Shown one piece after another: positions 3,113-55,345 of a stretch of DNA of 64,000 nucleotides. Below the pieces are notes generated by a model. It had not been told where the DNA came from and made no database searches. It saw nothing but the letters and a program-made list of their open reading frames with translations. The stretch comes from Prosopocoilus inquinatus (taxonomy: Eukaryota > Arthropoda > Insecta > Coleoptera > Lucanidae): assembly GCA_036172665.1 (NCBI GenBank), contig CM069872.1, forward strand, positions 37,248,101-37,312,100, given 5' to 3'. Each line of letters starts with the position of its first letter. The stretch's first letter is position 1. The position numbers were made by a program, and so were the translations under genes.

Positions 3113-3120
3113 GAGCTGCC

Positions 3121-3405
3121 AAACCAAGACGACTTGATCAAGCATATTCGCAATTGCGATGTAATAGTAGTGAATAGCTAAAACAGCGACATCCTACGAT
3201 CGCTTTTTGACCTCACATTGCATTAGGATTAACAAATTGAAGCCAGTTTGCAAACTAGCAATTGCGAATATCATTGGTCAAGTCGTTTTGGTTTGCAGTG
3301 GAAATCTCGAGTTACGTTTCTGCTGATGAAGTCCCAAATAAAGTTGCAACAGCTATTCAGAGGTTGCTCGAGGGATTCACTGCAATTAGAAACGATTTGC
3401 AACAG
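3121..3405. mobile_element. Decayed 312-bp retrozyme copy with inverted 5' part
   Basis: Positions 3121-3250 match the 312-bp unit of the 7-8.8 kb array in minus orientation, and about 3258-3405 match it in plus orientation. The HHR region is still visible at 3311-3369: TTTCTG followed by CTGATGA. The second core is now GCAA instead of GAAA and helix II is broken, so the ribozyme should be dead. The forward part ends just after GATTTGCAACAG, close to the 3' end shared by the other copies. Two short plus-strand open frames cover the forward part. Compared with the younger units most differences are non-synonymous, so I see no coding constraint. Confidence 0.8.
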
Positions 3406-4449
3406 AATAACTACGTTATTAACGAAGCTTTTAATTTAATTTTTTAATGTTGAAATGCGTAAATCAACAAGGCGTGCTTCATAAAATTAAAAATTTTGAA
3501 ATACAATACACCATCCCGTTTAAAAAACATCACGTTCATTTAAATTTTATGCCAGCCAGATTAAACTGAAACGTATTGCAGTTTTAATAATAATTTAAAT
3601 TCAGCGCTCATTCGTTCACTACAGGAAGCGTTTTGAATAAAAATGATTTAATAGCCGGTCGATGAAAATGAAAACTCTGGCTTGCTTGACCGTGAATCAA
3701 TTTACTTAAAAATAATGAGATGACAAAATTTGAATTACCTAATTCCAAGCGTTTTTATTGGAACGAGAAATGAAGTAAAAAAGTTTTTTTTTTGCGAAAG
3801 TCTGTGGCTATCGATATTTATAGGAGAGACAAAGCATTGTGATTAAAATTTAAAGTATCAAGTTAGTAGCGTAAGGTATGTGTAGAAGTGTGTGGCGTTG
3901 CGGACGCCTCTGTGACTGTTTTGCGAATATTTTCAAACTAAGAACTCATTGGAAACACGTTTTTGCAAATAATAACATAACTGCATGTGCGTAAGACATG
4001 ATATAAGTGCCGTCATTCCTGTGTATTTGAGTTTCGCTATTGGAAAATGCAATTTAATTTTCCGCTTGATGGACGACACAAGGTGAGTGAGTGCTTCTTC
4101 CTTCATTGGTTATTGGAATGCAAAATTTTAAATTTATTTCATTACTTACAATTCAACAAATAGTAATAGGCCTATAATTTAAAAAAATATTTGTCCATAC
4201 ATCAAAATGTTGGCGTTGAAAAATGAAGTTAATTTAATGTATGAATAATAATGCAGCGAGAGAGAGTGAGATTTGAGACAAAAAGACAGAAAAAATAAAT
4301 AGTTGTGGATTTAAAAATAAATCAAGTCATTTATTTATTAATTAAAAGAAAAGGGCCTGATTTATTATTATTAAGGCTTGGTCTTTTAACTTGTTTGTAA
4401 ACTTAAAATAAACACTAAATTAAACGTTATTTATATTCATGTGATTAAG

Positions 4450-4712
4450 TCCCGGTTTCATAATCAAACTAAACGCGACTTTAAAATAAAAGTAAAAGCC
4501 ATATGCCAATGTGTAAATAACTATCTTTTCGCATTTGTTTTGACAACTGACTGTGACTATAAATAATTTAAACTCTCATTTAGTTTAATAAAACTAAAGG
4601 AGACTTTCAAATAAAGTCAGCCGTATGTCCAAAACGATGCGAAAACGTAGTTATTGGTACATCAGATTGTGACCTTTAATTTTAAAGTTTCCTTTAGTTC
4701 GATTATGAAATC
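4450..4712. mobile_element. 263-bp MITE with 4-bp target duplication TAAG
   Basis: The ends are imperfect inverted repeats: GGTTTCATAATCAAACTAAA at the left and the complement of a GATTTCATAATCGAACTAAA-like sequence at the right. TAAG flanks both sides (4446-4449 and 4713-4716). The paralogous repeat at 53.97 kb reads straight through as GTGATTAAGACAGATGC, which is the empty site. No coding capacity is present. The superfamily is uncertain. Confidence 0.8.
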
Positions 4713-4907
4713 TAAGACAGATACAATCGTTCATTTAACGAAAGAGTTAAATGAGCTTTTACTTACAGGACAAATAAATTTACAAATGGCTTGAAAGAAA
4801 GTGACCAGATCCCTTAATCGTTCATTATCTATTTAATTCTATTTGCAAAATTGTTCGTTATTGTTTATTTAATGAAGAAATTACAGCTTTGAATCCTTCT
4901 ACTTAGT

Positions 4908-5100
4908 CAATTAACTGTTTAATTAATCATCTGGTGTTTTAAGGCCCAACTTTCCACTTCCTATTAAATTTATCTAACAGGTAATATCCTAATATTGTTA
5001 CGACAATGGTTTACTAGGACGTTGGCTGCTAGAAAACTTTATTAGGAGATGGAAAGATCGGGCCTTAAAGCACCAGATGATTAATTAAACGGTTAATTGG
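4908..5100. repeat. Foldback with about 58-bp arms
   Basis: Left arm 4908-4965 and right arm 5040-5100 are inverted copies; GGGCCTTAAAGCACCAGATG in the right arm pairs with the left. The paralogous locus near 54.17-54.22 kb has only the left arm and then continues with CTTGAAACACAATT. So either copy 1 gained an inverted duplication or copy 2 lost the loop and right arm. Confidence 0.7.
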
Positions 5101-5482
5101 TCTTGAAACACAATTATTTTATGTGGAAAGATTTTAGGTGAAATTAAAGTTAACGTGCAACTATTCTCATCAAATAATTAATAAATAATTTTATGAATAA
5201 GGTAAGTTAAAAGAGAATGAGAGGGAAAATGAGAGAGAAATTTAATATTCTCAACGAAAACCAATAGCAGAAATGGCGGTAATTTAATTCTTTTTGGTAC
5301 TTTTTTTAACGATCTTATATTGTTATAATTGTAAATATGTATTTATACAATTTACTTACGCTTTAGAGCTAAACGAAACAGCAGAAACACGGTTACTTTT
5401 TGTAATGTGGCAATGTAATTTATATACACAAGTATTTATAAAATGAAATAGTTTTTTAAATTTTGTTTATTATTTTTATATA

Positions 5483-5745
5483 CACTGTGTCCACGCATTC
5501 GGTTTACTACAGTAGAAACTTTTTTACTTTTCAGTTGGTATAAAAATATTCTTTATAAAAGTTTTTATTTGCCCAAAAATTCCTACGAATGTAAAGGAAA
5601 ACAGTAAATTTCGACTATATAGCTGAGAAATAGTAAAAATTCTGACTTTCAAAAACTTTTATAAAGAGTAACATTTTTCGAAAACTCAAAAGTAAAACAA
5701 AATCTTTTGTAGTGAACTTAACCCTTAACCCTTGGATATAGTTTA
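5483..5745. mobile_element. Tc1/mariner-type MITE in copy 1 of the 2-kb repeat
   Basis: It begins TACACTGTGTCCACG and folds back on itself through matching TTTATAAAAG/CTTTTATAAA segments. The paralogue at 54603-54834 keeps the inverted end AAACCGTGGACACGG better. A TA target and a CACTGTGTCC-like end suggest Tc1/mariner, but no transposase is present. The 3' end of this copy is worn. Confidence 0.5.
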
Positions 5746-5836
5746 TTTATCTAATTTATTTATTATATTCCATATTAAAAACTGCTTTTATTTTATACCC
5801 TTCAATTTAAACATGGAAGTTAAGTAACTGGAGGAG

Positions 5837-5895
5837 TAACTTGTCTCATTTTAAATGACAAGGTGGGGTAACTTGTCACATTTTAAATGACAAGG
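5837..5895. repeat. Two tandem hairpin units
   Basis: The block GTAACTTGTCNCATTTTAAA followed by TGACAAGG occurs twice in a row. Each unit can form a small stem of CTTGTC with GACAAG. Function unknown. Confidence 0.6.
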
Positions 5896-7056: not shown

Positions 7057-7122
7057 TTAATTTATTACCTTTTAGAAAAATTTTTGCAAATCGTTTTTGA
7101 TTGCAGTGAGAACCTCGAGCAG

Positions 7123-7169
7123 CCTCTGGACAGCTGTTTCAGCCCTGCTTGGGGCTTCTTCAGCAGAAA
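7123..7169 (-). ncRNA. Hammerhead ribozyme, unit 1
   Basis: On the minus strand: helix I TTTCTG/CAGAGG, core CTGAAGA, helix II AGCCC/GGGCT with a 6-nt loop, core GAAA, a 2-bp helix III (AC/GT) closing an AGCT loop, and cleavage triplet GTC. All core positions match the hammerhead consensus CUGANGA...GAAA...NUH. Confidence 0.9.
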
Positions 7170-7434
7170 CGTAGCTCGACATTCCCACTGCAGACCAAAA
7201 ACGACTTGCCCAATTTATTCGCAATTGCGATGTAAGAGTGATGAACATATAAAATAGCGACATCTTACTATCGCTTTTTGACCTACCATTGCAGTAGGAT
7301 AGACAAATTGAAGCGGGATTTGCTCCTAATGAGTCCCCCATGCAAGGCGGCCATGCTTGCTGTCAAAGCATAATGAAAGATTTTAGGAAAAATTTGTGCA
7401 AATCGTTTTTGATTGCAGTGAGAACCTCGAGCAG

Positions 7435-7481
7435 CCTCTGGACAGCTGTTTCAGCCCTGCTTGGGGCTTCTTCAGCAGAAA
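7435..7481 (-). ncRNA. Hammerhead ribozyme, unit 2
   Basis: Identical in core and helices to the motif in unit 1, exactly 312 bp away. Predicted active. Confidence 0.9.
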
Positions 7482-7746
7482 CGTAGCTCGACATTCCCAC
7501 TGCAGACCAAAAACGACTTGCCCAATTTATTCGCAATTGCGATGTAAGAGTGATGAACATATAAAATAGCGACATCTTACTATCGCTTTTTGACCTAACA
7601 TTGCAGTAGGATAGACAAATTGAAGCGGGATTTGCTCCTAATGAGTCCCCCATGCAAGGCGGCCATGCTTGCTGTCAAAGCATAATGAAAGATTTTAGAA
7701 AAAATTTGTGCAAATCGTTTTTGATTGCAGTGAGAACCTCGAGCAG

Positions 7747-7793
7747 CCTCTGGACAGCTGTTTCAGCCCTGCTTGGGGCTTCTTCAGCAGAAA
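7747..7793 (-). ncRNA. Hammerhead ribozyme, unit 3
   Basis: Third minus-strand copy at the 312-bp spacing, with intact core and helices. Confidence 0.9.
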
Positions 7794-8058
7794 CGTAGCT
7801 CGACATTCCCACTGCAGACCAAAAACGACTTGCCCAATTTATTCGCAATTGCGATGTAAGAGTGATGAACATATAAAATAGCGACATCTTACTATCGCTT
7901 TTTGACCTAACATTGCAGTAGGATAGACAAATTGAAGCGGGATTTGCTCCTAATGAGTCCCCCATGCAAGGCGGCCATGCTTGCTGTCAAAGCATAATGA
8001 AAGATTTTAGAAAAATTTTGTGCAAATCGTTTTTGATTGCAGTGAGAACCTCGAGCAG

Positions 8059-8105
8059 CCTCTAGATAGCTGTTTCAGCCCTGCTTGGGGCTTCTTCAGC
8101 AGAAA
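8059..8105 (-). ncRNA. Hammerhead ribozyme, unit 4, altered cleavage site
   Basis: The core CTGAAGA and GAAA are intact. The triplet is ATC instead of GTC and helix I has TAGAGG instead of CAGAGG. This costs one pair each in helices III and I, so activity is probably reduced. It lies next to the inversion junction. Confidence 0.8.
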
Positions 8106-8257
8106 CGTAGCTCGTCTAGCTTGTCTATCCTACTGCAATGTTAGGTCAAAAAGCGATAGTAAGATGTCGCTATTTTATATGTTCATCACTCTTACATCGC
8201 AATTGCGTATAAATTGGGCAAGTCGTTTTTGGTCTGCAGTGGGAATGTCGAGCTACG

Positions 8258-8304
8258 TTTCTGCTGAAGAAGCCCCAAGCAGGGCTGAAACAGCTGTCCA
8301 GAGG
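8258..8304 (+). ncRNA. Hammerhead ribozyme, inverted unit 1
   Basis: Helix I TTTCTG (8258-8263) pairs with CAGAGG (8299-8304). Core CTGAAGA is 8264-8270. Helix II is 8271-8275 with 8282-8286. GAAA is 8287-8290 and the GTC triplet is 8296-8298. Predicted cleavage is after 8298. Confidence 0.9.
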
Positions 8305-8569
8305 CTGCTCGAGGTTCTCACTGCAATCAAAAACGATTTGCACAAAATTTTTCTAAAATCTTTCTTTATGCTTTGCAAGCAAGCATGGCCGCCTTGCATG
8401 GGGAACTCATTAGGAGCAAATCCCGCTTCAATTTGTCTATCCTACTGCAATGTTAGGTCAAAAAGCGATAGTAAGATGTCGCTATTTTATATGTTCATCA
8501 CTCTTACATCGCAATTGCGAATAAATTGGGCAAGTCGTTTTTGGTCTGCAGTGGGAATGTCGAGCTACG

Positions 8570-8616
8570 TTTCTGCTGAAGAAGCCCCAAGCAGGGCTGA
8601 AACAGCTGTCCAGAGG
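8570..8616 (+). ncRNA. Hammerhead ribozyme, inverted unit 2
   Basis: Exact 312-bp repeat of the previous motif, with intact core, helices and GTC triplet. Cleavage at both this and the previous site would release a 312-nt RNA. Confidence 0.9.
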
Positions 8617-8818
8617 CTGCTCGAGGTTCTCACTGCAATCAAAACCGATTTGCACAAAATTTTTCTAAAATCTTTCATTATGCTTTGACAGCAAGTATGG
8701 CCGCCTTGCATGGGGGACTCATTAGGAGCAAATCCCGCTTCAATTTGTCTATCCTACTGCAATGTTAGGTCAAAAAGCGATAGTAAGATGTCGCTATTTT
8801 ATATGTTAATTTATTACC

Positions 8819-9157: not shown

Positions 9158-9442
9158 TATAAACGGAATATATAAAAGAGCGACATCTTACTATCGCTTT
9201 TTGACCTAACATTGCAGTAGGATAGACAAATTGAAGCGGGATTTGCTCCTAATGAGTCCCCCATGCAAGGCGGCCATGCTTGCGCATAAATTGGGCAAGT
9301 CGTTTTTGATCTGTAGTGGGAATGTCGAGCTACGTTTCTGCTGAGGAAGCCCCAAGCAGGGCTGAAACAGCTGTCCAGAGGCTGCTCGAGGTTCTCACTG
9401 CAATCAAAAACGATTTGCACAAAATTTTTCTATAAACGGAAT
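9158..9442 (+). mobile_element. Single retrozyme monomer with inverted 5' half, 12-bp target duplications
   Basis: TATAAACGGAAT lies at 9158-9169 and 9431-9442. Between them, 9170-9282 is a minus-strand segment of the 312-bp unit and 9283-9430 a plus-strand segment. In RNA order the inverted segment lies immediately upstream of the forward one with about 28 nt missing between. Its outer end corresponds to the internal junction. That is the signature of twin priming in LINE insertions. The 3' end (CGATTTGCAC then AAAATTTTTC) coincides with the 3' end of the larger array. The hammerhead is at 9335-9381. Confidence 0.88.
9335..9381 (+). ncRNA. Hammerhead ribozyme in the twin-primed monomer
   Basis: Same helices as in the array. 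The core is CTGAGGA, which still fits CUGANGA because position 7 may be any base. Predicted active, but a single site cannot release a monomer by itself. Confidence 0.87.
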
Positions 9443-13800: not shown

Positions 13801-14010
13801 TAATTAAATTTTATGAACTCTTTTTTTTAAATATAATATAAGTTAATGTCAACAGGTTGTTTGAACTGAAATATAATCTAAATCGTAATTTACTAATACT
13901 TAGGTCATGTTTTCATTGCGCACTTATATTTTGGTTAATTTGGGAAAAATGCCTGGGAAAATCTGCTGCGCCTTTACGCTTTTATTCCGAAAACTATCTC
14001 AGATTTGTTA
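10882..14010. other. Mostly unassigned; one unexplained short frame
   Basis: Apart from a moderately GC-rich open frame of 70 codons at 12400-12612 (plus), I see nothing coding. That frame contains PLVVADDVGDDWITFMSS and matches no family I know. A 62-codon minus frame overlaps it, so it may simply be a GC-rich stretch with few stops. No tandem repeat or TIR element was recognised. Confidence 0.4.
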
Positions 14011-14035
14011 ATCTCCGCCCACAATAACTTGATAT

Positions 14036-14080
14036 CCGTAGATACGTATTTCGCCAACTAAGCTGCCATCTTCAGTACTC
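14036..14080 (-). ncRNA. Decayed hammerhead ribozyme
   Basis: Minus strand: CTGAAGA at 14069-14075, GAAA at 14049-14052, TACGTA then TC after it, and helix I GTA/TAC. Helix II has decayed (GGCAGC against GTTGGC, where the sister element has GCTGCC). Probably inactive. Confidence 0.7.
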
Positions 14081-14400
14081 TGCCAACTTAAAAGCACTTA
14101 AAAATATCTAAAAACAACCTAATCATTCTAATAAAATCATAAAAATATAAAAACTAACATCAATCTAATAATCCTAAAAGATGATATGTCTAAATGTAAG
14201 CAAATAAAAATTAATATGTAAATATCTAAAATTAATCGTTAGTAAAACCTTACAAATAAGAGCTAACCAAATAACAAGGAAATACGGAAATAAATAAATA
14301 AAGACCCGAAAGAAGTTCTTATTTTAACGAATAAATAAGTATAAATTCCCTGTTATTTGATACCTAAAAATCTTAAAAAATAAAATAAAATATATATATA

Positions 14401-15670: not shown

Positions 15671-16090
15671 TAGTCAAAGCAGCTTATTGAATCGATTAGA
15701 AAAAGAGCAAGCTCGGTTGCCAATATGATTATGTATATCTGCGGAAAATTTAGAATAAAAGAAAATGTTCCTCCAAATGAAAAAAAAAATAGTAAAGACA
15801 AAGGAAAATAGAGACGTTGATGGTTGACAGATGTTGAAAATCTCTATTGTGTACAAATAATTTGGGTTTACGAACTTTAGTTTAGTTGCAGGTTATGTAG
15901 ATTTTGCATCTGTAAACTTTGTAATAATAATAATAATAAATTTATTTTCATTATGTTCATGCGTTGTACATACATTTGACTCGTCAAGAAAAGGAATTCG
16001 AATTTTTGCATATCTAAACGCCTACTGAATAACAGCCTTTTAGAGCGAAATAGACCTTCAAATTTAGTTTGAAACATTTAAAGGGCAATA
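15671..16090. other. AT-rich spacer with a short (TAA) run
   Basis: A TAA/ATA simple repeat lies at about 15920-15940. Two short minus-strand frames are unsupported. Confidence 0.5.
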
Positions 16091-16178
16091 GGCGCTATTC
16101 TGTATCGAGTACGTTAAATTTAAAGGTCTGTTGCTATGGTAACAACCTATTATAAAGCTTTTTGACTGGTTATCATAG

Positions 16179-16525
16179 CAATCAAAAACGATTTGCACAA
16201 AAATTTTTCTAAAATCTTTCATTATGCTTTGACAGCAAGCATGGCCGCCTTGCATGGGGGACTCATTAGGAGCAAATCCCGCTTCAATTTGTCTATCCTA
16301 CTGCAATGTTAGGTCAAAAAGCGATAGTAAGATGTCGCTATTTTATATGTTCATCATTCTTACATCGCAATTGGGAATAAATTGGGCAAGTCGTTTTTGG
16401 TCTGCAGTGGGAATGTCGAGCTACGTTTCTGCTGAAGAAGCCCCAAGCAGGGCTGAAACAGCTGTCCAGAGGCTGCTCGAGGTTCTCACTGCAATCAAAA
16501 ACGATTTGCACAAAAATTTTTCTAA
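16179..16525 (+). mobile_element. Retrozyme copy of 1.1 units inside a MITE
   Basis: About 35 bp starting GCAATCAAAAACGATTTGCA occur at both ends (16179-16213 and 16491-16525), so the insert is one 312-bp unit plus an overlap. This is what reverse transcription slightly more than once around a 312-nt circle would give. It ends at the same 3' position as the other copies. The hammerhead is at 16426-16472. A 93-codon frame runs through it. Confidence 0.85.
16426..16472 (+). ncRNA. Hammerhead ribozyme in the nested copy
   Basis: TTTCTG/CAGAGG helix I, CTGAAGA, AGCCC/GGGCT helix II, GAAAC and GTC are all intact. Confidence 0.9.
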
Positions 16526-16563
16526 CAAAATTTAAGTTACTCGATACAGAATAGCCCCTAATA

Positions 16564-16653
16564 GGGCCTGTTCTGTATCCATAAAGCTTTTCGATTGGTT
16601 TGTATCATAGCAACTGTCCGTTAAATTTAACGTAATCGAGACAGAACAGGCCC
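16564..16653. mobile_element. 90-bp MITE, TA target
   Basis: GGGCCTGTTCTGTATC at the left pairs with GAGACAGAACAGGCCC at the right. TA flanks both sides. The internal sequence (AAGCTTTTCGATTGGTTTG) matches the MITE halves around 16140 and 16710 and shows what the interrupted MITE looked like. Confidence 0.75.
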
Positions 16654-16658
16654 TATTA

Positions 16659-16751
16659 GGGGCTATCCTGTATCGAGTACGTTAAATTTAACCGACTGTT
16701 GCTATGGTACAAACCAATCGAAAAGCTTTATGGTTGGTTGTTACCAGCCCC
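16659..16751. mobile_element. 93-bp MITE of the same family
   Basis: It starts GGGGCTATCCTGTATCGAGT, ends AGCCCC and is flanked by TA. The right inverted repeat is weak. It directly follows the previous copy. Confidence 0.65.
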
Positions 16752-23198: not shown

Positions 23199-23807
23199 TT
23201 GGCAATAACCAAAACATAACCTTCTTTTGACAAATTAAAACCGGATATGGAATTGATCATGATAGGCAATTATTCAATCATTCCACCTTAAATTAAATAT
23301 TGCTAACTCAGGACAGTTGACACTGACCACCCAGTACATTTAGTCTGAAATGTAACCACTGATAATCTAAAAAGAGGAATTATTTTAAAGTTTTTTTATT
23401 AGTGTAAATGTGATCATAGTTATATAATTAATTTGTCAAATTAATACCGCTACTATAGCAACTGTTTCCTGAAACACCCATTTTCATTAAAGTATTGTAA
23501 GTGTCCCCATTTTTTATGTCTCCCGTGATACCTATTAGCTTCATGTTTAGTAAATAATGGAAATTACAGGTAATTAGATTCCATCATCCTCGGCATAAAC
23601 TCGTATTTCAGTAAATAGATAATAAATTTGTTTAATTTTTGGTGAATGCGCCGGTATTTTCCATAATTTACGCGGGAATATTTGAAATTGGTTTATGTAA
23701 CTTTCTCGCTCTAAAACAAGAAAGTCTTATGCAGTACTCAACCATTAATTATAAATAAAATTTAATTATTTACCTTGACTTACTTACTTACGATCTTAGT
23801 TCTTTAG

Positions 23808-23995
23808 CTGTAATCTGAGTAAATAGTGAGAAAACCCCTCGACCACATTAATTCACTGAAAGCGAATACGTATTTCGGTAACGAAGTTACCATCTTCAGC
23901 GCTAAACTGAATTAATGTGGTCGAGGGGTTTTCTCACTATTTATTTGGATTACAGCCACAGGTTTTGTGTTGCTTTGTGATTACTGTAATCTGAG
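23808..23995 (-). mobile_element. PLE-like hammerhead mini-element, 12-bp target duplications
   Basis: CTGTAATCTGAG occurs at 23808-23819 and 23984-23995, bounding a 164-bp insert. Within it nearly perfect inverted arms (23807-23855 and 23908-23956, about 46 of 49 pairs) enclose a 52-nt loop that is essentially one hammerhead. A 27-nt tail precedes the right target duplication. Arms running slightly into the target duplication suggest microhomology at insertion. The plan (inverted part, ribozyme, forward part, tail) matches PLE terminal repeats. No coding sequence; movement would need enzymes in trans. Confidence 0.8.
23858..23907 (-). ncRNA. Hammerhead ribozyme with very long helix I
   Basis: Minus strand: AGCG/CGCT helix I (23900-23903 with 23861-23864), CTGAAGA (23893-23899), helix II GGTAAC/GTTACC with a TTC loop, GAAA (23873-23876), and helix III formed by TACGTA with an AT pair. 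The position-17 base is T, which the NUH rule allows. Beyond a small internal loop helix I continues into the 49-bp inverted arms. Confidence 0.85.
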
Positions 23996-24681: not shown

Positions 24682-24952
24682 TATTTTACTTTTAAAAACT
24701 TAATTGAAATTAACCTCCGCCCACAATAATTTTTATATCCGTAGATAGGTATTTCGGCAGCTCCGATGATTTTGTCAGTGTGATTAGGTTGTTTTTACAC
24801 ATTTTTTGTGCTTTTAAGTTGGTAGCGTACTGAAGATGGCAGCTTAGCTGCCGAAATACGTATCTACGGATACAAAAATTATTTTGGGCGGAGGTTATTT
24901 TCAATTATCTCTTAAACCACAATCTCCTTTACTATTTTAGTTTTAAAAACTT
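24682..24952 (+). mobile_element. PLE-like hammerhead mini-element, about 20-bp target duplications
   Basis: TATTTTACTTTTAAAAACTT (24682-24701) recurs at 24933-24952 with one mismatch. The 231-bp insert has 61-bp inverted arms (24702-24762 and 24846-24906), a loop carrying the 5' half of a hammerhead, and a 26-nt tail ending CTCCTTTAC. Arms and tail match the element at 14011-15670. The minus-strand frame across it is a by-product. Confidence 0.8.
24823..24873 (+). ncRNA. Hammerhead ribozyme
   Basis: Helix I CGTA (24826-24829) with TACG (24865-24868) and an outer GTA/TAC, CTGAAGA (24830-24836), helix II GGCAGC/GCTGCC with TTA loop, GAAA (24853-24856), self-paired TACGTA, and cleavage triplet ATC ending at 24864. 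All core positions are intact. Confidence 0.88.
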
Positions 24953-26958: not shown

Positions 26959-27619
26959 TTAGTACTCGGACAGTATCAACCTTGCCCACAACGTGTGAAC
27001 GTTCGCATTGCACTTCTTCCCTTCCCACTCAATAATAATTCGATGCACCGCATCGGAGGCCGCAGAAAGGTGGCAGGAGTGAGCAGTACATTCAGCATAA
27101 AAAGTGTCCTGTTCATTATCAATCCATAGGCCAAGATTTTTGACAGATTGAGAAAACTGTAAAACTGAGTCATCAATTTTAATATTAAGTAAGTTAATTA
27201 AATTAGTTTTCTGTTTGTTACCAAAAATCATAACCGAAGATTTTGTACCGTTTGTTTTAAGATCATGACGTCTTGAAAGATTAACTAGAGCTTGTACATA
27301 TATCTGAATTTACATTAACATTAGTTTCAGCAACATCTCTAGCCTGAAAATGGTAATACAGATGACTGTCATCGGCATAAGTATGTAATTTACAATAACG
27401 CAGGCACTTATTAAATGATGACGTATATATAACGTAGAGTAAAGGACTGCAAATGCTGGCCTGAGGTACACATGAGGTTAAAGTTGGTACATCTGGTTTA
27501 GAGCCATTAGCAAGAACGCATTCTGATCTTCCTACCAAGTACTGCCTAAAGAAATTATTTGAAAAAATGTTAACATACACATGTAATGCACCTCTGACAA
27601 CGATAATGGAAGTTCTCAT
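26959..27619 (-). pseudogene. Non-LTR retrotransposon reverse transcriptase fragment
   Basis: Reading down the minus strand, 27619-27281 gives YLVGRSECVLANG, SICSPLLYVIYTSS and KLHTYADDSHLYYHF, the last being the catalytic YADD box. After a break, 27280-26959 gives KSSVMIFGNKQKTNL and SVKNLGLWID, the palm-to-thumb region. This order identifies a LINE reverse transcriptase of the jockey/CR1 type. The first half of the protein, including the endonuclease, is absent, and the reading frame is broken near 27281. Non-functional. Confidence 0.75.
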
Positions 27620-27849
27620 AATATTTTAATCCTCAGTTGCACCGGGATTTTAAGCGGAATTTAAAAATAATTGGTGTTTAGATTATGATTTTTATGAATA
27701 GTGAGTATAATGTCAATCACATTCTGAATGACAGTAAATTGACACTAAGACTTTATTAAATATCAATTAGAATATGAGTACTAGTATTGCTATATATAAC
27801 TGTATATCATATATTTATAAAAATTTAAACAAGAAATCCTCTGTAGCGA

Positions 27850-32029: not shown

Positions 32030-33560
32030 GCAGTACCTATTGCCTCTTCTTATCGGTCTTATTTCGGATCTCTCTGACGATATATGCATCTTCCCCATAC
32101 TTAAAGTTGACTTTCCTACCCGGAAATCATGTTTGTTGTCACTAAATGCATTTCTGTCATCTATCTACTTATGTAGCCTCTCCCTTACAAGAGTCTCTAG
32201 GGCCTTCCCTGTTACATCAAGCAAGCAAATAGGTCTATAGATAGTCTCCTCATTATCTGTCTTCCTTGGCTTTTCCACAAGTACTAGTCTGACTGTTTCC
32301 ACTGCTTTTCATTCTTTCGGGAAAAACCCTTCTTCCAGCTATCATTGAATACTCACAGAAAAATTGCATGGTTCGCCATCACGCTGACTTTGATTATCTC
32401 CGGTGGTATGTTGTCCTGACCGGAGGCTTTGGGGTTCTTGATTCTCCCCGGGGCTCTGATCAATTCCTCTTGTGTAAATCTAAGTTCTTCCAGGTCTTTG
32501 TTTTTGCATCTGGGCGTAATACGCTTCTTCTCCTTCGCTATTGGAAATAGTTTCTGGATCTGTTTTGTTAGCTCCTCTTGGTTTAATTGCGTACTCGGCT
32601 TCAAGTTCAGTTTGTCTCTATCTTGTAAACCTTTCCCCAGGAGTCGTGCTGAAGTTCAGAGCGCAAATTGTCCCAACATCTTTCTTTCTCTTTCCGTATG
32701 GCTTCATTCAACCTGAGTTTAGTCTCCTGATTCCATGCAATCCGTCGGTCCGTTTCCGCGGATCGATGGAGTCGAATAGCTTTCCTCCTTAACGTGATGC
32801 AGGTCTTCTCCATTTCTGCAATGGCATCAGTCCACCAATATGGTGGAGTGTTCTTGTATTGTCCTTTTCTGGGTTTCTCACTCTTCTTTCTTGCACTTGT
32901 TTTACCTTCTCTGCAATTTTTTGCACGCCATCTAGAGTGACTCGCCATCCTTCGCCAGTTTTGCTTTCTCGCCTGAGGCTCGTTTTGTTCTGCTTTATCT
33001 GGAAGGTGATTGTCGCCGAGGCTTTCCACCTCCTCAGCAACCCTCCAGTTTATGATTCAGCTTACCATCTAATTTGAGGCGAGGATCAGGTTTACATGTG
33101 ACTTTCCCCTCGTACTCATTAATGTAGGGGTGTTTCCAGTATTCATCACTACAAGGTTATTTGCACTTATCCATTCCTCCATTACTCTCCCTCTTCCGTT
33201 AGAGACATCTTTCTGAACCGAAAGCATTCGAGCATTGAAGTCTCCAGTGACTTACCCACGTTTCTTATGCGGTCTCCCAACATGGCAAGCCACTCCTTAA
33301 ATTCCCGTATTTGTTTATTTGGGAAGAAATAACAATTAAAAACAACACAAATTGCATAAATACCCGTTTCCTATAGCACAGATTCTGTAGCTTCGGCCCA
33401 AAAGGGTGAAAGTATCACAGTCTTTATCACAGTTTAAGTATTTCGCCCTCTTGTGGCTGGGCTCTTGCCCTAGCACCACATCTATCCTATCCTCAGATCT
33501 CATCTGATTTAGGAGATCCAAGGCTTCCGCATGCCTGTTCTTGTTCAGTTGCATAACCCT
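32030..33560 (-). pseudogene. R1/LOA-type LINE ORF2 relic: endonuclease plus reverse transcriptase start
   Basis: Minus strand in order: an APE-like endonuclease start (MQLNKNRHAEALDLL, DVVLGQEP, 33554-33336), the endonuclease end near 33060-33190 (NTGNTPTLMSTRGKSHVNL), a linker with PPYWWTDAIAEMEKTC (32607-33029), the pre-RT motif NPKASGQDNIPPEIIK (32353-32604) and RT block IYRPICLLDVTGKALETL (about 32250-32180). This order is typical of R1-group elements, which use ORF2 for target-primed reverse transcription. Multiple frameshifts and stops break it, and the catalytic half of the RT is missing. Confidence 0.8.
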
Positions 33561-47070: not shown

Positions 47071-47134
47071 AACGTGTTAATTGTAAAACAACAATGAATT
47101 TTCAGTTGCACAGCCTATTTATTAATTTTTTTTT

Positions 47135-47176
47135 GTAGACGTGTCACAGCATATTCGCCGCTTCTTCAGTACAATC
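47135..47176 (-). ncRNA. PLE hammerhead, left terminal repeat (core mutated)
   Basis: Minus strand: helix I TTGTA/TACAA is perfect, CTGAAGA (47163-47169) is intact, but the second core reads GACA instead of GAAA (47142-47145). The triplet GTC is present. Expected to be inactive. Confidence 0.75.
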
Positions 47177-47408
47177 TAAGAAACAAATAAATGTGTTACG
47201 AACCAGGAATTTACAATCAGTTACTTAACATCTTCTTACCTAAATGTAAAAGAGGACAAAACAAACACTGAAAATATTCATTCACATATTGCAGTGGTAC
47301 ATAGGGTAGGCACGATGACGCGTCTTGAAGTGACCTTGAATAGATACGAGGCAACCTATTTACTTTATAAATCTTGAATCTGGAACAAGCATCCAAAAAT
47401 ACCATAAC

Positions 47409-47957
47409 GTGATCAGGAGGAATGGCCATATTTTTAATTTATTGACTAGTTCATGTTCCTTGTTTACAAACGTACCTGTAAACATAGCTTTGAATGTTAT
47501 CAATCATAGGTGGTCTGATTTAGCTCCTCACACAACCATCAATAACAAAAATGAATTTATTGAAGCGGTAAAATTTTGCCTCACTTCGTCTTATTTTACC
47601 TTTAATAGTTGCTTGTACCAACAAATTTATGGTACCCCCATGGATTCTACCTTATCACCTGTTATTGCTGACATAGTGATGTTTCATGTCGAAAACTCTA
47701 TTTTAACAAACCTACCTTTGACTCCTATTTTATATTTTCGTTATGTTGATGATATATTAACATGTATTGATAATGCAACACAACAAAGTTTCCTATTACA
47801 ATTTAACACGTTTCATGAAAAGTTGAAATTTACCATAGAAACTGAACAAGACCATAGTATAAATTTCTCAGATGTAATTAAGGAGAACAATTATATTATA
47901 ACGAATTGGTATCGCAAACCTAGTTGGTCAGGTCGCTACGTAAATTTTAGTTCATAA
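47409..47957 (+). pseudogene. PLE reverse transcriptase fragment
   Basis: The frame contains SLFTNVPVNIA (block 2a of PLE RTs), YQQIYGTPMDSTLSPVIADI (normally GTPMGSPLSP) and ILYFRYVDDILTC with the catalytic YVDD intact, then NWYRKPSW. These are diagnostic of Penelope/Poseidon-group reverse transcriptases, which are related to telomerase. Only the palm region survives. The N-terminal third of the protein is absent, and the frame ends at a stop before the thumb and linker. A short continuation with the next domain is seen at 48067-48258 (HIIEINVNKRLKKLL) in another frame. Confidence 0.85.
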
Positions 47958-48066
47958 CAACCTATTAAATATAAAATTCCCACTATCAACAATTTATTAG
48001 ACAGAGGCATACTTCTTTCACACCAAAAAATTTCACAACGATAATATTTTATTAATTAAGGATGTT

Positions 48067-48258
48067 TTGTTAAAAAATTGCTTTCCACCTCATATAATTG
48101 AGATAAATGTTAACAAACGTCTTAAGAAACTTCTTCAAACTAAATTTAACAATAATTCTTCTGATATTTTAACTCAAACTAATCAACACAAGTTTATTTC
48201 GCTTCCTTATCATACTGTTATGTTTCTAGAGTTTAAATTAATTTATTTAATCGAATAA
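48067..48258 (+). pseudogene. PLE linker region fragment
   Basis: LKNCFPPHIIEINVNKRLKK and the following SLPYHTVM match the segment between RT and endonuclease in PLEs in position and character. It is separated from the RT by a frame change near 47960-48060. Confidence 0.5.
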
Positions 48259-48356
48259 AACACTCAGTAACAAATATAACCGTAATTTAATAATGATTCC
48301 CATCTAATTTATTTGCAACAATTTATTTTATACACTAAATCTAACTTCGACGATCG

Positions 48357-48545
48357 CTAATTAGAACTCGATTGACTCCTGAGGTCACCCCGGCCGATTT
48401 TATATTCTACGCTGCCTTCTCGTTTGTTCCAACCTGGAAAAGTCGGGTTTGTTCGGTACAGACCCCGGCGGCGCGGCGGCCGATGACGCACAATAACGAA
48501 CCGACTTCTTGACGCCTTCAGTGTGACGTAATGATCTGAGTGGCG
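48357..48545. other. GC-rich block interrupting the PLE
   Basis: The flanks are AT-rich PLE sequence. This block of about 190 bp contains GACCCCGGCGGCGCGGCGGC and looks foreign. It resembles no tRNA-derived SINE (no B box found) and I cannot name it. It is probably a nested insertion between the RT linker and the endonuclease. Confidence 0.5.
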
Positions 48546-48827
48546 CGCCACAATACTAATTTACAAAGCAGAGTCCATAAAATTTTCAGGAAATACCAAC
48601 TCACACCTGTATGGTCAATAAATAGTATCTTTAGGTCGCTAGAAACTAGAATGAAAGAGAAAAGAGAAAAGCAAAAATGTAGCAATCTCATTTATAAAGT
48701 ATATTGTAAAAACTGTAATTCTTGTTATATAGGTCAAACTTTGCTATATTTAAAAACCAGACTTTACCAACACAATTATCATATTAATAAAGGTAACCCT
48801 AATCATAGTGCTTTAGTACAATCATAG
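48540..48827 (+). pseudogene. PLE GIY-YIG endonuclease fragment
   Basis: The frame ends in LIYKVYCKNCNSCYIGQT and LLYLKTRLYQH, the GIY-YIG signature with the CCHH-type cysteines upstream seen in PLEs (here C..C). The Arg in KTRLYQH and the following His are kept. This domain nicks the target DNA. The frame stops at 48827, before the catalytic Glu helix is complete, so it is not functional. Confidence 0.8.
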
Positions 48828-49303
48828 CTTTTGTTTCGACAACTGTATTGTATTAGATAATGAAAATAATAAATTTAAAAGATTATTTAAAGAATCTTTA
48901 CATATCATTATGAATCCTAATAACATTAATCACATAAGTGATTTCCAAGAAATTAATTATTACAGGCATGACCTAATTAAATAGTTTCCTTTATTGTTTA
49001 TACAGATTAAGAAATAGATTGTGTTGACTTGCTACTTACAGGTATTTTTCCTCCTTCACATATTCATTGTTCTTTTACATATAGAAAAACTAGATATTGC
49101 GCTTTTGTTTTCAAGGTTCAAACCATGTTCGACAATCTGTGTTGTTAACTTGTGCTCGCTTCTCTTAACGTTTTCATAATGTAATTTGTAATTTGCTGTT
49201 ACCAATTTTTTAAAGTGTTTGTTTTGTTCCCTTTTACATTTAGGTACGACGATGTTAAGTAACTGATTGTAAATTCCTGGTTCGTAACACATTTATTTCT
49301 TTC

Positions 49304-49352
49304 TTAGATTGGACTGAAGAAGCGGCGAATATGCTGTGAAACGTCTACAAAA
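49304..49352 (+). ncRNA. PLE hammerhead, right terminal repeat
   Basis: CTGAAGA (49314-49320), GAAA (49338-49341), CGTC (49342-49345) and TACAA follow the hammerhead plan. Helix I has lost a pair (TTGGA where the left repeat has TTGTA) and helix II is imperfect. The left copy has the opposite damage: good helix I, bad core. Confidence 0.75.
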
Positions 49353-49559
49353 AAATTAATAAATATGCTGTGCAACTGAAAATTCATTATTGTTTTACAA
49401 TTTATCCCAGCCAACAAACATCGCTCAAACGTGTTAATTGTAATAGAACTAACTGAACTGAATAGAATAATTGTAGAATTGACGATAACTGTTTTTTGAT
49501 AATATTTATTAATTCTAAAATAAAACTAATTATTTCATTGCTGTGTTATTACGAAGCTA

Positions 49560-49791: not shown

Positions 49792-51617
49792 CAGTATAAC
49801 CTCTTTAATATGAACATGTCCTAATCCGAACCTTTAGTAATCTGAACAGCGGAAATTTGAAGCCACAATCCGAACAATGACTTCTTAATTCGAACAGCGA
49901 AGTGATTCCCTGCGTATGTAAATGGGGAAATCCCTTGGTTTCACGTTTTCTGATGCCCTGTCCGGACCAGTGCGAACAGGTTAGCTTACATTTCATCACC
50001 TGAGAACTATAGTATTCTGTCTGCATTTTCTTCTGAAAACGAGTTAAGTTTTGTTTTGAATTCTATAGCATCATATCATTCTGTCAATATAATTAATCAT
50101 GATATTGTACAGTTTAAAGCTCATGAGGCTAATATTAGAATGTTCTAACTAATCATCCTGAATCATTTATTTGTATTTGTATTCGCGGTTTCCACTAATA
50201 TGAAAATATAGATAGAACACTATAATTCTCAGGTGACTATTTGTTCTCTTTCAGTATTAGCTGCGTTTCTTTTAGCGTGTCTCACCTACGGATGGAATTC
50301 CCTTATTAAAGCAGAATTGTTAGTAGATATCTTAGTAAAACACAATTAGCCGCCAACAATGTCAGCGAACGCTGCTGCAAACAGTGTTAGCTAACAATGT
50401 TCGCGTTGGCGTGAACGTGGCATAAGAATGCTTTGTTTGCTTTTTATCTTTCATTATGTTGACTGTTAACCTTGGAGTGTTACTGAGTTCAGTTCACATT
50501 GCAATTTAGAGCACAGATGACTTCTAAAACGAAACACGTTACTTTATTGATAAATTAACAAATTCAACTTATTAACCTATTCGTGACCAAGCTCTGAAAA
50601 ATATTAAGAAATGCTAAGCGGAACAACTGAATTTCCTCAATAAAATTAGTAATTTTATATGCGCAATTGTACATATTAAATTGATGAAATGATGCATCTT
50701 TGGAGCAATGGAATGATGAAGCTACGGATCGATGCAATAATAGATAGATGGTGCCATGAATCGTTGAGGAAGCAATGAAGAGATAGATCGATGGATAATT
50801 GGTTAATAAAACGATGAATCAATGGATTAATGAAGCAACAGATCGATGAAGCGATGGATCGATAAATCGATGGATAAATTAAGTGATGGATCCATGAAGT
50901 GGCGTATAAATCCAGCAAGCTGTCGATGAAGCGATGGATCAGTGAGGCGATAGATGGATCCAGCAAAAGATGAATGTTGCGATGGATAGATAAAGCGATT
51001 GATCGATGAAGTATTGAATCGATGACGCGATGAATTAATGAAACGATGTACTGATTAAACAATGAATCTTTGAAGTGATAGATCAATAGATGGTTGATCC
51101 GATGGTGGATCAATAAAATGATGGATCGAAACGATCGATGGATTGATAAAGTGATGAATTGGTAGGTAGTTCAATGTTTTCAAGCCACAGATGTTCAACT
51201 GATGTTTTTGTGAGTGTACACAGGTTTTACAGATTTTTAAATGTTTCAGATACAAATCGTTTCAATTACAAAAGCGGTCCAGCAGGATATTTAAGTTAGC
51301 CCAATGATAAAGTCTTCAATAATTTAAAATGTAAAACATTATATAATCTTATAAGAATTGTATCTATCAAAGATGATATTTATAAATCCATACATTTGGA
51401 GTATCTCAGATATCAGGGCACAAAATGGTTAAGAGTTTAGATGCGGGTTAATTTCTGATTTAAAAATAAATAATTTTTTATTATGAGAATGTTAAAATTC
51501 CAGGATAATTAAGAAAATGGATATTTTTTATCTTTTCTTGGACTTCGATAATCCGAATATGTCGAAAATACGGATCAACCAGTGCAATTACTAGTTCGGA
51601 TTAAAGAGGTCCTACTG
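49792..51617. mobile_element. pogo/Tigger-like element, 1826 bp, non-autonomous
   Basis: The left end is CAGTATAACCTCTTTAATAT, the right end GTTCGGATTAAAGAGGTCCT then ACTG, with TA on both sides (49790-49791, 51618-51619). TA targets and CAGT ends are typical of pogo-like elements. The left 120 bp match the right end of the element at 17748-18626. The interior has no transposase and holds a minisatellite. Short AATCCGAACA-type repeats lie beside both ends. Confidence 0.8.
50690..51175. repeat. GATGNA/GATGGATCGAT-rich degenerate minisatellite
   Basis: About 480 bp built of variants of GATGAAGCGATGGATCGATA. Units are short (about 8-24 bp nested periods) and degenerate. The 145-codon minus frame over it (a run of IHRFID-like repeats) is a translation of the repeat, not a gene. 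It lies inside the pogo-like element and may be its expanded internal repeat. Confidence 0.85.
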
Positions 51618-51619
51618 TA

Positions 51620-53167
51620 TATGGCACTTAAACGAAATTAAAATTTCCATAACTCTTTTTTTTAATTTAAACTATTGCTGCATAAATCTTCTTCATAATC
51701 TTAAACATTAAATTGCATTCGTGCGATATCTATTAGAAACAGAGCAAATTTTCCCGTATTTTATCTTGGGAAAAAAAAATTCAACAACATTTGAAATCCC
51801 ATATTGTTTTTCCTAAAACTCAGAAGAACGGGACGGACGTACGATATATTTCTCGCGATGATCGTAAAACCGCCCCTTTTACTTGTTTTATGTTTTACAC
51901 AAAACAAATTCAAAAAAAGATAGGAAACGGCATTCTGAACAATATATAAAGCAATTTTTAATTCTGAAAACTAAAGGTACTTGGTATAGAAAGAACTTTG
52001 ACACTTTGATCGCGCTATGACATAATTTTATTGTCAATTTTGTTGATAGCAATACTAGTACTATCTATGTGACGTAAACCTTCGGTTTCTGCGATCTTTT
52101 ATTCGGTCTTTATACTGAAGATTCTTTATTATTTTACTAGCAAAACCTACTAGTTGAATCAAGCTGCAGCTGCGACACGTATTCTAAAACGGATGGAGAA
52201 GTTTTGTAGTTTCCTTCGAGTGCGTTTCAACATCTTTGATGTACAATTACTAATTACCTTCGAGTTAAATTAAATCATTTTTATGTACAGTATACCGTTT
52301 TCTTACAATATCTTTGATATCAGCAACTTTGTGTTTATTGAGATTATTCATTTGAAGATTAAAATTTTTCAATAACTTTTAAGCTTTTTTGGACCTAATT
52401 CTGTGTAAGTATGTAAATATCGCGGTTACTTCCCAGTTCTAGGTTGTTTTACAAATTATTTGACTTTTTAAGAGCCGTGTGGCACGATATTAATTTTTAT
52501 GTAAAATTAGTAGGCAGAAATTTGTTACAGTGACAGATTTAAGTTACTGTAGTGAATGCTTTATTGTTTTATTTATTTTCAAAAAATATCAACGATTCAT
52601 ATGGGCCTAAAACTATTTTCTGAAAAAGCTCTTTTTTACTCGGCAAGTTTCAATTGTTCATTTGAAGATTTAAATTTTACAGTAAATTTTGAACTTTCTT
52701 GCAAACCTTACTTGAGATTAATTAATTCTCTGTCGAAATCGATAGCTTCTCTGTGTTTACTGTTTTAAAAGCTTTTGTTTTACAGATCTTAGAAGATACT
52801 TGTTTAAGTATTTCAATTTCGAAGTGAGATTAAAAATTCTAAATCCGCGTTAAGCTTTGGGAAGGCTGTTTTGAATTTCAGAAAACTTATGTATCAGAAA
52901 GTGGTAATTAAAGCGTGCGGTAAATATCAAAATTTTATAGATTCTCATTCTGCTTATCTGAAATTAATTTTGTTTATATTTGAAAAGGATAAACGAGGCT
53001 TGTCTCAGTGATGTTGGCCCAATTAACGAAAATAGTTTTTTTTAAACACTCCTAGAAAGAAAATTTATGAAAATCGATAGAATATTGTAATCATATGTGA
53101 ATTGTTTATTAATCTTTAATATATAAAACTAAATATCTAATAACAGGAATAACTAAACAAAAATTGC
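51620..53167. other. AT-rich spacer
   Basis: No supported feature. The 70-codon plus frame at 52556-52768 has no motif. Confidence 0.5.
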
Positions 53168-53617
53168 CTAAAAATAATGAGATGACAAAATTTGAATTAG
53201 CTAATTCCAAGCGTTTTTATTCGGACGAGAAATAAAGTAAACAGTTTTTTTTTTTGCGAAAGCCTGCACTACGTGTATCAATAAACACATAACGTATGTA
53301 GGGGACAAAGCATCGTGATTAAAATTTAAAGAATCAAGTTAGTAGTGTAAGGTATGTGTAGATGTGTGTGGCATTGCGGACGGTTCTGTGATTACTTTAC
53401 GAATATTTTAAGACTTGGGACTCATTAGAAACGCATTTTTGCAAAAAATAAGATAAATGCATATGTGTAAGATGTGATGTAAGTGCCTTCATTCTTTCAT
53501 TTGAGTTTCGCTATTGGAAATTGTGCAATATAATTTTCCGCTTGATCGACGACACAAGGTGAGTGAGGACTTCCTTCATTGGTTATTGGAATGCAAATTT
53601 TTAATTTAATTCATTTT

Positions 53618-53660
53618 ATTTAGATCGCTTTATGTAATAACGACATAAAGCGATCTAAAT
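53618..53660. repeat. Perfect 18-bp hairpin absent from copy 1
   Basis: ATTTAGATCGCTTTATGT (53618-53635), a 7-nt loop, and its exact complement (53643-53660). Copy 1 has unrelated short sequence at the matching place. Perfect complementarity implies a recent origin. Confidence 0.85.
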
Positions 53661-54602
53661 AGATTGCATGTAATTTAATCGATTCAATTTAAAGGCCTAT
53701 AATTTAAAAAAAAAATATTTTGTTCATACATTAAAGTGTCGACGTTGAAAAATTAATTTAATTCAATGTATGAGTAATAGTGCAGCTAGAAACAATGCAA
53801 TTTGAGAGAAAAAGACAGAAAAAATAAATAATCGTTGATTTAAAAATAAATCAAACCATTTATTTATTAACTAAAGGTAAAAGGCCTAATTTATGTAATA
53901 AGGCTCGGTCTTTTAACTTGTCTGTAAACTTAAAATGAACACTAAATTAAACGTGATTTATATTCGTGTGATTAAGACAGATGCAAAGTCTTATTTAACG
54001 AAAGAATTGAATGAGTTTTTACTTACAGGATAAATAATTTTACAAATAGCTCTACAAATAAAGTGACCATATCCCCTAATTGTTCATTATCTATTTAATT
54101 CTATTTGCAAAACAAAATTGTTCGTTTTTGCTTATTTAATGAAGAAATTACAGCTTTGAATCCTTCTACTTAATTAATTAACAGTTTAATTAATCATCTG
54201 GTGCTTTAAGGCCCTACTTTTTACTTGAAACACAATTATTTTATGTGGAGAGATTTTAGGGGAAATTAAAGTTAAACGTGCAACTATTCTCATCAAATAA
54301 TTAATGAAGAATTAATGAATAATGTAAGTTAAGAGAGAATGAGAGGGGGGAAAGAGAAAGAAATTTAATAAGCTCAACAAAAAACATAATCGGCGGTAAT
54401 TTAATTCTTTTTAGTACCTTTTTAACGAACTCCATTGGCTTGTTATAATAATTGTAAATATCTAATTATTACGCAATTTTCTTACACTTAAGAGCTAAAC
54501 GAAACAGCAGAAACACCGATGCCTTTTCTAATTGTGGCAACATAATTTACTTACACATTTAAAATGAAATATTTTTTTAATTGTGTTTATTGTTTTTATA
54601 TA

Positions 54603-54834
54603 CACTGTGTCCACGTATTCGGTTTGTTATAGGAAAAGCTTTTTTATTCTTCAGTTTTCGAAAAAAATCATTCTTTATAAAAGTTTTTATTCCACAAATG
54701 TAACGGAAAATGATAAATTTCCATTAATAGCTGAGCAGAAATGAAATTGTAACATTCATAGACTTTTATAAACATTTTTTGAAAACCCATAAATAAAAAA
54801 TATTCTTCTGTAGTGACTCAAACCGTGGACACGG
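54603..54834. mobile_element. Tc1/mariner-type MITE, better-preserved copy
   Basis: TGTGTCCACGTATTCGGTTT at the left pairs with AAACCGTGGACACGG at the right. The interior folds back. Same element as at 5483-5745. Confidence 0.6.
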
Positions 54835-54921
54835 TTCATATACCTAATTTATTGTGTTATTCCGCGTAATAAAAAGCTTATATTTTACACATTTAAATTT
54901 AATCATGAAGGTTAAGTAACT

Positions 54922-55345
54922 GGAGGGGTAACAAGCGAGCGGAGAACACGCCGACTTTCGGACGCGCACCCTCCTTTCTTCTGTGGCAAAAATAAAGAGC
55001 GCCAGAGAGCACATGATGTGCGTGACGAAGTGCGCGATACTTTTACACATCGAGTTATACCACTGGAGGACGCCATGCCTGTGTATTACTGAATACCGGT
55101 CCAACCGCGGGCCTCTTGTACGGCAAGACGAACATAGTGTGGAATATTGCGCACTTTGTCATACACACGTTATGTTCTCTGGTGCTATTTATTTTTATCA
55201 TACAAGAGAGGGGAGCGTGCGTCCGAAAATCGGCTCGTTTTCTATTTACTCCTCCAGAGGTACACCGTGATTTTACCCTCCATTCCTTCTGCCATACTCG
55301 TGACTGGCTCGTGACCAGACCGGTTTTCAGTAATCTCGTATGATA
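54922..55345. mobile_element. Foldback element with arms of about 170 bp
   Basis: GGAGGGGTAACAAGCGAGCG...GACTTTCGGACGCGCACCCTC at the left is the inverse of the sequence up to about 55258 (…GTGCGTCCGAAAATCGGCTCG). Further inverted copies of GACCGGTTTTCAGTAAT extend it to about 55340. Open frames at 54844-55104, 54983-55270 and 55116-55343 are translations of the arms. A fragment occurs inverted at 6705-6775. Unassigned family. Confidence 0.65.

Follow-up and report, generated by a model that had tools for sequence, protein, structure and literature searches.

Head-to-head insertions with two fixed ends in a 312-bp hammerhead retrozyme of the beetle Prosopocoilus inquinatus suggest copying of a circular template by Penelope-like machinery

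How does a short repeat that encodes no protein come to lie in a genome as two opposed arrays between short direct repeats? The question is raised by a locus of the lucanid beetle Prosopocoilus inquinatus (GCA_036172665.1, contig CM069872.1), situated in the 64-kb stretch of DNA analyzed here (positions 37,248,101–37,312,100, hereafter the window, to which all coordinates refer). We found that positions 7070–8805 form an insertion with a period of 312 bp and unit-to-unit matches of 98–99%, flanked by perfect 13-bp target site duplications (TTAATTTATTACC, 7057–7069 and 8806–8818). On the plus strand of the 64 kb this sequence occurs exactly twice, abutting both insertion ends. The insertion consists of two arrays placed head to head, with the 5' sides of the RNA facing each other. 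When the unit is numbered from the first base 3' of the ribozyme cut, the left arm (7070–8114, minus strand; 3.35 head-to-tail units) has its outer end at unit position 60, within what we refer to as site 1, and the right arm (8121–8805, plus strand; 2.2 head-to-tail units) at position 195, within site 2; a 6-nt filler (8115–8120) lies at the junction. An earlier note on this DNA had described an insertion of 312-bp units with a 13-bp direct repeat on both sides; the units and the repeat, which is exact and lies directly at the ends, are borne out, but the head-to-head arms had been overlooked.

A structural motif scan of the 64-kb window detected seven full hammerhead ribozymes, all within the 312-bp repeat family and five of them in the 7070–8805 insertion. 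Since only 0.017 are expected per random 64-kb sequence (first-order chain, 60 sequences), the motif is not due to chance. Cuts are predicted on the plus strand after 8298 (type I hammerhead, 8258–8304) and 8610 (core 8576–8610), and on the minus strand after 7129, 7441 and 7753 (cores 7129–7163, 7441–7475 and 7753–7787, the first coordinate of each being the last base before the cut). All but one of the insertion's six hammerheads are intact, including those of every complete unit, in agreement with the earlier note, which had placed a type I hammerhead in each. The sixth (core 8065–8099, minus strand) belongs to the partial unit beside the junction and is altered in two places at the cut (unit positions 310 and 1). 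The Rfam type I model, Hammerhead_1, matched 8258–8304 with 23.8 bits when a 111-base stretch was searched alone, which is below its gathering score of 34, and Rfam reported no hammerhead at the scale of the 64-kb window. Other hammerhead-like letter motifs of the window (at 14075, 23899, 24830, 33037, 41943, 45022, 49314, 60251 and 62911) fail the structural scan. Self-inverted, fold-back repeats at 24701–24907, 23807–23956 and 14009–14140 carry a hammerhead-like string, CTGAAGATGG...GAAATACGTA, that fails it likewise.

No protein relatives of the 312-bp unit were found in the search for them, and a diverged copy at 3116–3408 contains several 1-nt indels, which counts against coding; the earlier note's statement that protein-coding sequence is lacking thus stands. 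A 222-aa open frame (8020–8688) was considered as a protein and dropped, as it has no relative; 312 being a multiple of 3, an open frame is able to run on through the units. Weak Pfam matches of the unit to a spidroin model and to DUF5690, both below cut-offs, were taken as chance. The layout of the retrozyme copies includes no LTR. A viral origin was also considered; an exact search of viral_contigs with a 35-nt core gave 0 matches. With its length of 312 bp and G+C content of 43.6%, the unit lies inside the range used for non-LTR retrozymes (about 150–450 bp, G+C below 45–50%).

The features that can be judged from sequence support the assignment of this element to the metazoan non-LTR retrozymes, and with it the retrozyme-like identity proposed in the earlier note. 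Like the retrozymes described by Cervera and de la Pena (2020; PMC7229834), it combines a type I hammerhead having a two-pair helix III and a tetraloop with a unit of low G+C (170–400 nt there) present in tandem copies, without LTR or ORF, with target duplications longer than 4 bp and with a highly self-paired predicted circle. Expression and cleavage were demonstrated for the published elements; for the 312-bp element, cleavage is predicted from the sequence. Plant LTR retrozymes are likewise noncoding, bear hammerheads and spread via circular RNA (PMC4918200), yet they differ, as given in PMC7229834, by type III hammerheads, LTRs with a primer site and polypurine tract, 4-bp duplications and a unit of about 700 nt.

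Three further retrozyme copies are present in the window. A short head-to-head insertion (9170–9430, or 9158–9442 with its duplications; antisense arm 9170–9283, sense arm 9280–9430) is bordered by the 12-bp duplication TATAAACGGAAT (9158–9169 and 9431–9442) and has outer ends at unit positions 194 and 57. The copy at 16176–16525 (plus strand) is a single arm of about 1.1 units ending near unit position 58 (site 1), at which no target duplication was seen by eye; it seems to be inserted into a palindromic repeat (16089–16739). The old copy at 3116–3408 is again head to head, with a broken ribozyme and an identity of 83–84% over its two arms; its ends lie at about 50 and about 253, the second of which makes it misfit site 2. 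The window also holds a dispersed repeat family (3699–5840 and 53161–54932, about 77–87% identity between the two) and a degenerate tandem array of a 16-bp period (50812–51048, about 15 copies).

The genome-wide search for the unit and its flanking duplications that the earlier note had proposed was carried out with a 601-base query against the 650-Mb genome (173 contigs). It gave 851 candidate places, the best 40 of which were scored and 37 loci taken, so that the sample leans to long, young arrays. The resulting set comprises 38 head-to-head insertions, namely 36 from elsewhere in the genome and the window's two young ones (entered by hand); it leaves out L045 (a duplicate of L044), 12 single-arm rows and the window's old and single-arm copies. 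We found that among these insertions, drawn from the best 40 of 851 candidates, 36 of 38 pair an outer end at site 1 with one at site 2, and that the same site occurs at both ends in 0 of 38. The site classes (unit positions 45–75 and 180–212) were set after the ends had been seen; by simple arithmetic, about 2% of insertions would be expected to have one end in each class at random. In the 36 insertions, site-1 ends fall at 52–60 in 35 cases and at 73 in one, most often 55 nt past the ribozyme cut (10 cases), and site-2 ends at 191–199 in 34 cases, with single cases at 185 and 204 and a mode of 197. The 185/73 pair belongs to a single locus, L021, which has a doubtful 6-bp duplication and whose alignment before correction ended at 197/60. 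In the two exceptions (L028:1530 and L043:4272) the site-2 end is present and the other end is truncated or rearranged. An additional insertion met by chance in other DNA fits, with ends at 61 and 200, and of the 12 single-arm or small-fragment rows, the five that are long and lie at separate places each terminate at one of the two sites (L022, L024 and L033 at 200, L030 at 60 and L044 at 197). A Pol III stop at a T5 run was considered as the origin of the site-1 end and set aside; it would leave site 2 unaccounted for.

Exact target duplications of 11–17 bp, well past the 4 bp used to recognize dispersed insertions, accompany 34 of the 38 insertions (best 40 of 851) and are 12 or 13 bp long in 27; the remaining four comprise L021 and three insertions without duplication. 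The duplications of the set are 85% A+T. The case that the earlier note had named against its own reading, copies found only in satellite blocks without target duplications, is contradicted by these figures. An ordinary satellite, spreading through unequal exchange or DNA circles, would produce head-to-tail 312-bp arrays, and neighboring retrozyme insertions with identical inner arm ends at L016:586-2595 (unit positions 63 and 24) and L028:1530-2792 (unit position 97) do suggest some local duplication or conversion at the DNA level; yet a satellite consists of arrays only, without insertion boundaries, and here the insertions are dispersed, with differing target duplications and two fixed ends, so that we give this explanation next to no credence. 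The second arm could also be the first cDNA turned back on itself and self-primed, as was proposed for rotifer Penelope-like elements (PLEs) with junction palindromes (PMC3846280). The outer end of such an arm should mirror the first start, whereas in none of the 38 insertions do both ends fall at one site, and the lengths of the two arms are uncorrelated (rho -0.08, 38 insertions), which makes fold-back highly improbable. At the junction itself the arms overlap by 1–7 nt in 29 of 38 insertions.

As for PLEs, the window contains a degenerate one of the plus strand (47087–49427, or 47071–49443 with its duplications), which is flanked by a 16-bp duplication (47071–47086 and 49428–49443) and begins with an inverted, antisense arm (47087–47278). 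It retains remnants of a reverse transcriptase (47340–47954; Pfam RVT_1, 24.8 bits against a cut-off of 29.6) and of a GIY-YIG domain (48540–48824; 22.4 bits against a cut-off of 22.6), and has 25 protein relatives at E <= 0.001 (best identity 49%), most with an RT domain and one with GIY-YIG. A hammerhead-like letter motif lies at 49314–49345; neither Rfam nor the structural scan reported it or a hammerhead in the PLE 3' end. A genome search with this 3' end (best 40 of 75 candidates scored) gave 56 matches and 11 pairs with both arms in view, after exclusion of L058 (a duplicate of L057), L053 (the same locus as L048) and one-arm loci. In 9 of the 11 head-to-head pairs one arm ends 44–58 nt and the other 81–89 nt past the hammerhead-like cut; in the exceptions, L071 and L072, one arm stops elsewhere. 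Six of the nine rule-following pairs have exact duplications of 11–16 bp (window copy 16 bp, L048 13, L054 14, L057 11, L062 11 and L070 13), and L069 has one of 7 bp. Very short PLE copies, of about 120–300 bp, at L057, L067, L068 and L070 consist of two head-to-head 3' ends, one per start site; those at L057 and L070 carry duplications of 11 and 13 bp, and such copies seem to be insertions halted almost at once.

The retrozyme and the PLE thus share head-to-head insertion with one end per start site (36 of 38 and 9 of 11, respectively), and the near site lies about equally far past the cut in both; by eye, the start-site sequences of the two show no clear likeness. Published accounts of PLEs name head-to-head as the commonest inverted arrangement and note that one inverted pLTR may carry a 31-bp tail (PMC3846280). 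A purified PLE cleaves both DNA strands, extends both, and begins synthesis within the RNA at two neighboring positions; most starts lie 111–118 nt into the ORF, the hammerhead cut being at 26 (PMC11167929), which by our arithmetic on these figures places the start about 85–92 nt past the cut. The retrozyme insertions resemble PLEs in the head-to-head arms, the AT-rich targets, the extension of both DNA strands and an internal start downstream of the hammerhead at two sites, corresponding in PLEs to the "tail" (PMC11167929, PMC3846280). Unlike PLEs, the retrozyme is noncoding, has no reverse transcriptase and so is not itself a PLE; its sites are about 142 nt apart as opposed to about 30–40 nt, and its duplications are mostly 12–13 bp, those of rotifer PLEs being shorter, 8–10 bp (PMC3846280). 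This PLE-like anatomy lends indirect support to the earlier note's suggestion that the element may be copied by the reverse transcriptase of another element.

The target sites were compared in 33 insertions brought into one orientation (L041 and duplications shorter than 10 bp dropped). A weak motif is common to the two nicks: G is the first base past the nick in 15/33 and 17/33, respectively, and T the second in 17/33 and 24/33. On the strand priming site 1, T occurs at -4 in 26/33, and an exact GTTA follows the nick in only 4/33 and 3/33. Two nicks about 12–13 nt apart with related sequences fit one enzyme acting twice. A rival explanation is twin priming of the LINE type, in which a LINE enzyme begins from the 3' terminus of a linear retrozyme transcript while the second DNA strand primes internally. 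Twin priming by LINEs gives head-to-head inversions, target duplications of similar size and junction microhomology, both DNA strands priming on one RNA, and broken open frames like LINE RT remnants are present in the window (26959–27625 and 32353–33056, minus strand; one recognized by Pfam RVT_1 at 22.7 bits, below the cut-off, the other by eye). In LINE-1, however, reverse transcription first begins at the poly(A) end, and its second start is not known to occupy a fixed place, whereas both ends are fixed here, no poly(A) tail was seen at the insertion ends, and a single monomer, which has just one 3' end, stands behind both arms. We therefore regard LINE-type twin priming as quite unlikely.

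The evidence for a single monomer comes from sequence variants in 35 insertions, three older ones (L016:597, L028:1530 and L043:4272) having been dropped. Trimming removed unit positions 44–61, 6 nt at the outer ends and, at the junction, the overlap together with 12 nt more. Among the insertions that carry a given subfamily allele, it is present in every unit of both arms in 9/9 for A133G, 7/9 for C203T, 5/9 for A216T, 2/3 for C147T and 2/2 for G16A, and the two arms have the same majority allele in 30/30 (position 133), 29/30 (203), 28/30 (216), 32/32 (147) and 33/34 (16) comparisons. Partial filling is confined to L025, L034:333, L043:1547 and two insertions with long junction overlaps that look composite, L041 and L044. 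In the latter two (L041:1499-4298 and L044:1527-3068) subfamily alleles are mixed and the overlaps measure 35–43 nt; they are perhaps nested insertions or made from two templates. Private variants behave otherwise: 107 calls are partial, 3 fixed and 4 covered once, versus 25 fixed and 15 partial calls among shared variants (Fisher p = 4.6e-15). Untrimmed and with the older copies kept (43 arrays), the counts are 145 partial, 3 fixed and 6 covered once for private variants and 56 partial, 40 fixed and 11 covered once for shared ones. Later mutations stay in single units of an insertion, 114 of the 122 partial calls of the trimmed set being confined to one unit. As inherited alleles fill both arms and private variants occupy part of the units, each insertion was mostly copied from one monomer, and a single monomer template would most simply be a 312-nt circle copied several times round. 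In line with this, the inner ends of the arms do not cluster at the ribozyme cut (1/72 within 5 nt, 2.3 expected), as for a template that has no end there. Their distribution is not uniform (Rayleigh p ~0.014), which we count against the circle-based reading.

A linear multimeric transcript that had escaped self-cleavage might instead serve PLE machinery with two fixed starts. In the published assay, the PLE mainly used RNA that had not been processed, and ribozyme-dead RNA inserted equally well (PMC11167929), which counts against a need for the ribozyme in the PLE insertion step, and homogeneous source arrays would yield homogeneous multimers. Altered units of a source array would, however, be passed on singly, and with the mixed cases aside only 106A, 270T, 265G and 254C are partial in two insertions of the trimmed set; new alleles occupied all units of both arms instead. 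Moreover, since 180 of the 182 ribozyme cores examined in retrozyme copies keep their catalytic letters, a transcript of at least five units would be expected to cut itself. A multimeric template is for these reasons unlikely, and we return to the circle.

The sense circle of one unit is predicted to fold with -112.5 kcal/mol, compared with -75.5 +/- 5.1 for 200 shuffles (z -7.3); for the antisense circle z is -3.5. In the predicted sense fold, the two longest unpaired stretches, 48–69 and 186–210, take in both start-site ranges, as they do in 14 of the 312 rotations when the true one is counted. Part of the ribozyme core is paired at minimum energy, and a fold that leaves the core free is about 5 kcal/mol dearer. 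In the long stem, comparison with the old copy gives two pairs with compensatory changes, a weak support that 37 of 500 shuffles equal.

The head-to-head anatomy with one end per fixed site, the target duplications and the single monomer behind both arms of most insertions are observations; from them we infer that the monomer is a closed circle, that the ribozyme makes it and that a PLE protein is the agent. PLE-type machinery probably nicks both strands of the target and primes two rolling-circle reverse transcriptions on one ribozyme-made 312-nt circle. In such a course of events, retrozyme units would be transcribed, the hammerhead would trim the RNA to 312 nt, and the trimmed RNA would be closed into a circle, for which published work points to a host tRNA ligase. 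A complex of PLE-type reverse transcriptase and GIY-YIG endonuclease could then hold one circle and nick both strands of an AT-rich target about 12–13 nt apart, the two DNA 3' ends priming reverse transcription at site 1 (about 55 nt past the cut) and site 2 (about 197). Each enzyme would circle the template for up to about 8.5 turns, and the two cDNAs would be joined, mostly through microhomology of a few nt, to leave head-to-head arrays between target duplications. We give even chances to a more specific version, in which the PLE complex is dimeric and binds one small ribozyme circle at two fixed sites, both lying in unpaired arms of a central multiloop, and each reverse transcriptase, primed by one nicked strand, circles it several times. 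The anole PLE was assayed with linear RNA (PMC11167929), unlike the circle proposed here.

The kind of element is known; its insertion anatomy and the mechanistic message of that anatomy appear to be new. The accessible passages of PMC7229834 present the copies as tandem repeats and make no mention of head-to-head arms, two fixed starts or one template per insertion, and searches of open full texts turned up no report of head-to-head retrozyme insertions with two fixed starts or of template haplotypes (subscription literature and supplements lie outside this range). Cervera and de la Pena (2020; PMC7229834) proposed circles as templates and PLEs as a strong helper candidate, on the basis of shared traits and coexistence with retrozymes. 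The return of animal retrozymes to DNA has so far been argued from such plausibility, hammerheads being found in both retrozymes and PLEs, which coexist. Here the genome copies seem to record the reaction itself: one template and two fixed starts, one per strand, at nicks about 12–13 nt apart. The step from circle to genome can thereby be put to a direct test, using purified PLE protein together with a 312-nt circle. Should retrozyme and PLE rely on one machinery, this would argue against fold-back as the origin of the inverted repeats of PLEs. If the dimeric complex is real, the inverted repeats and "tails" seen in PLEs would follow from the same one-end-per-site rule, and the role of the hammerhead would be to supply PLE machinery with a circular, endless template.
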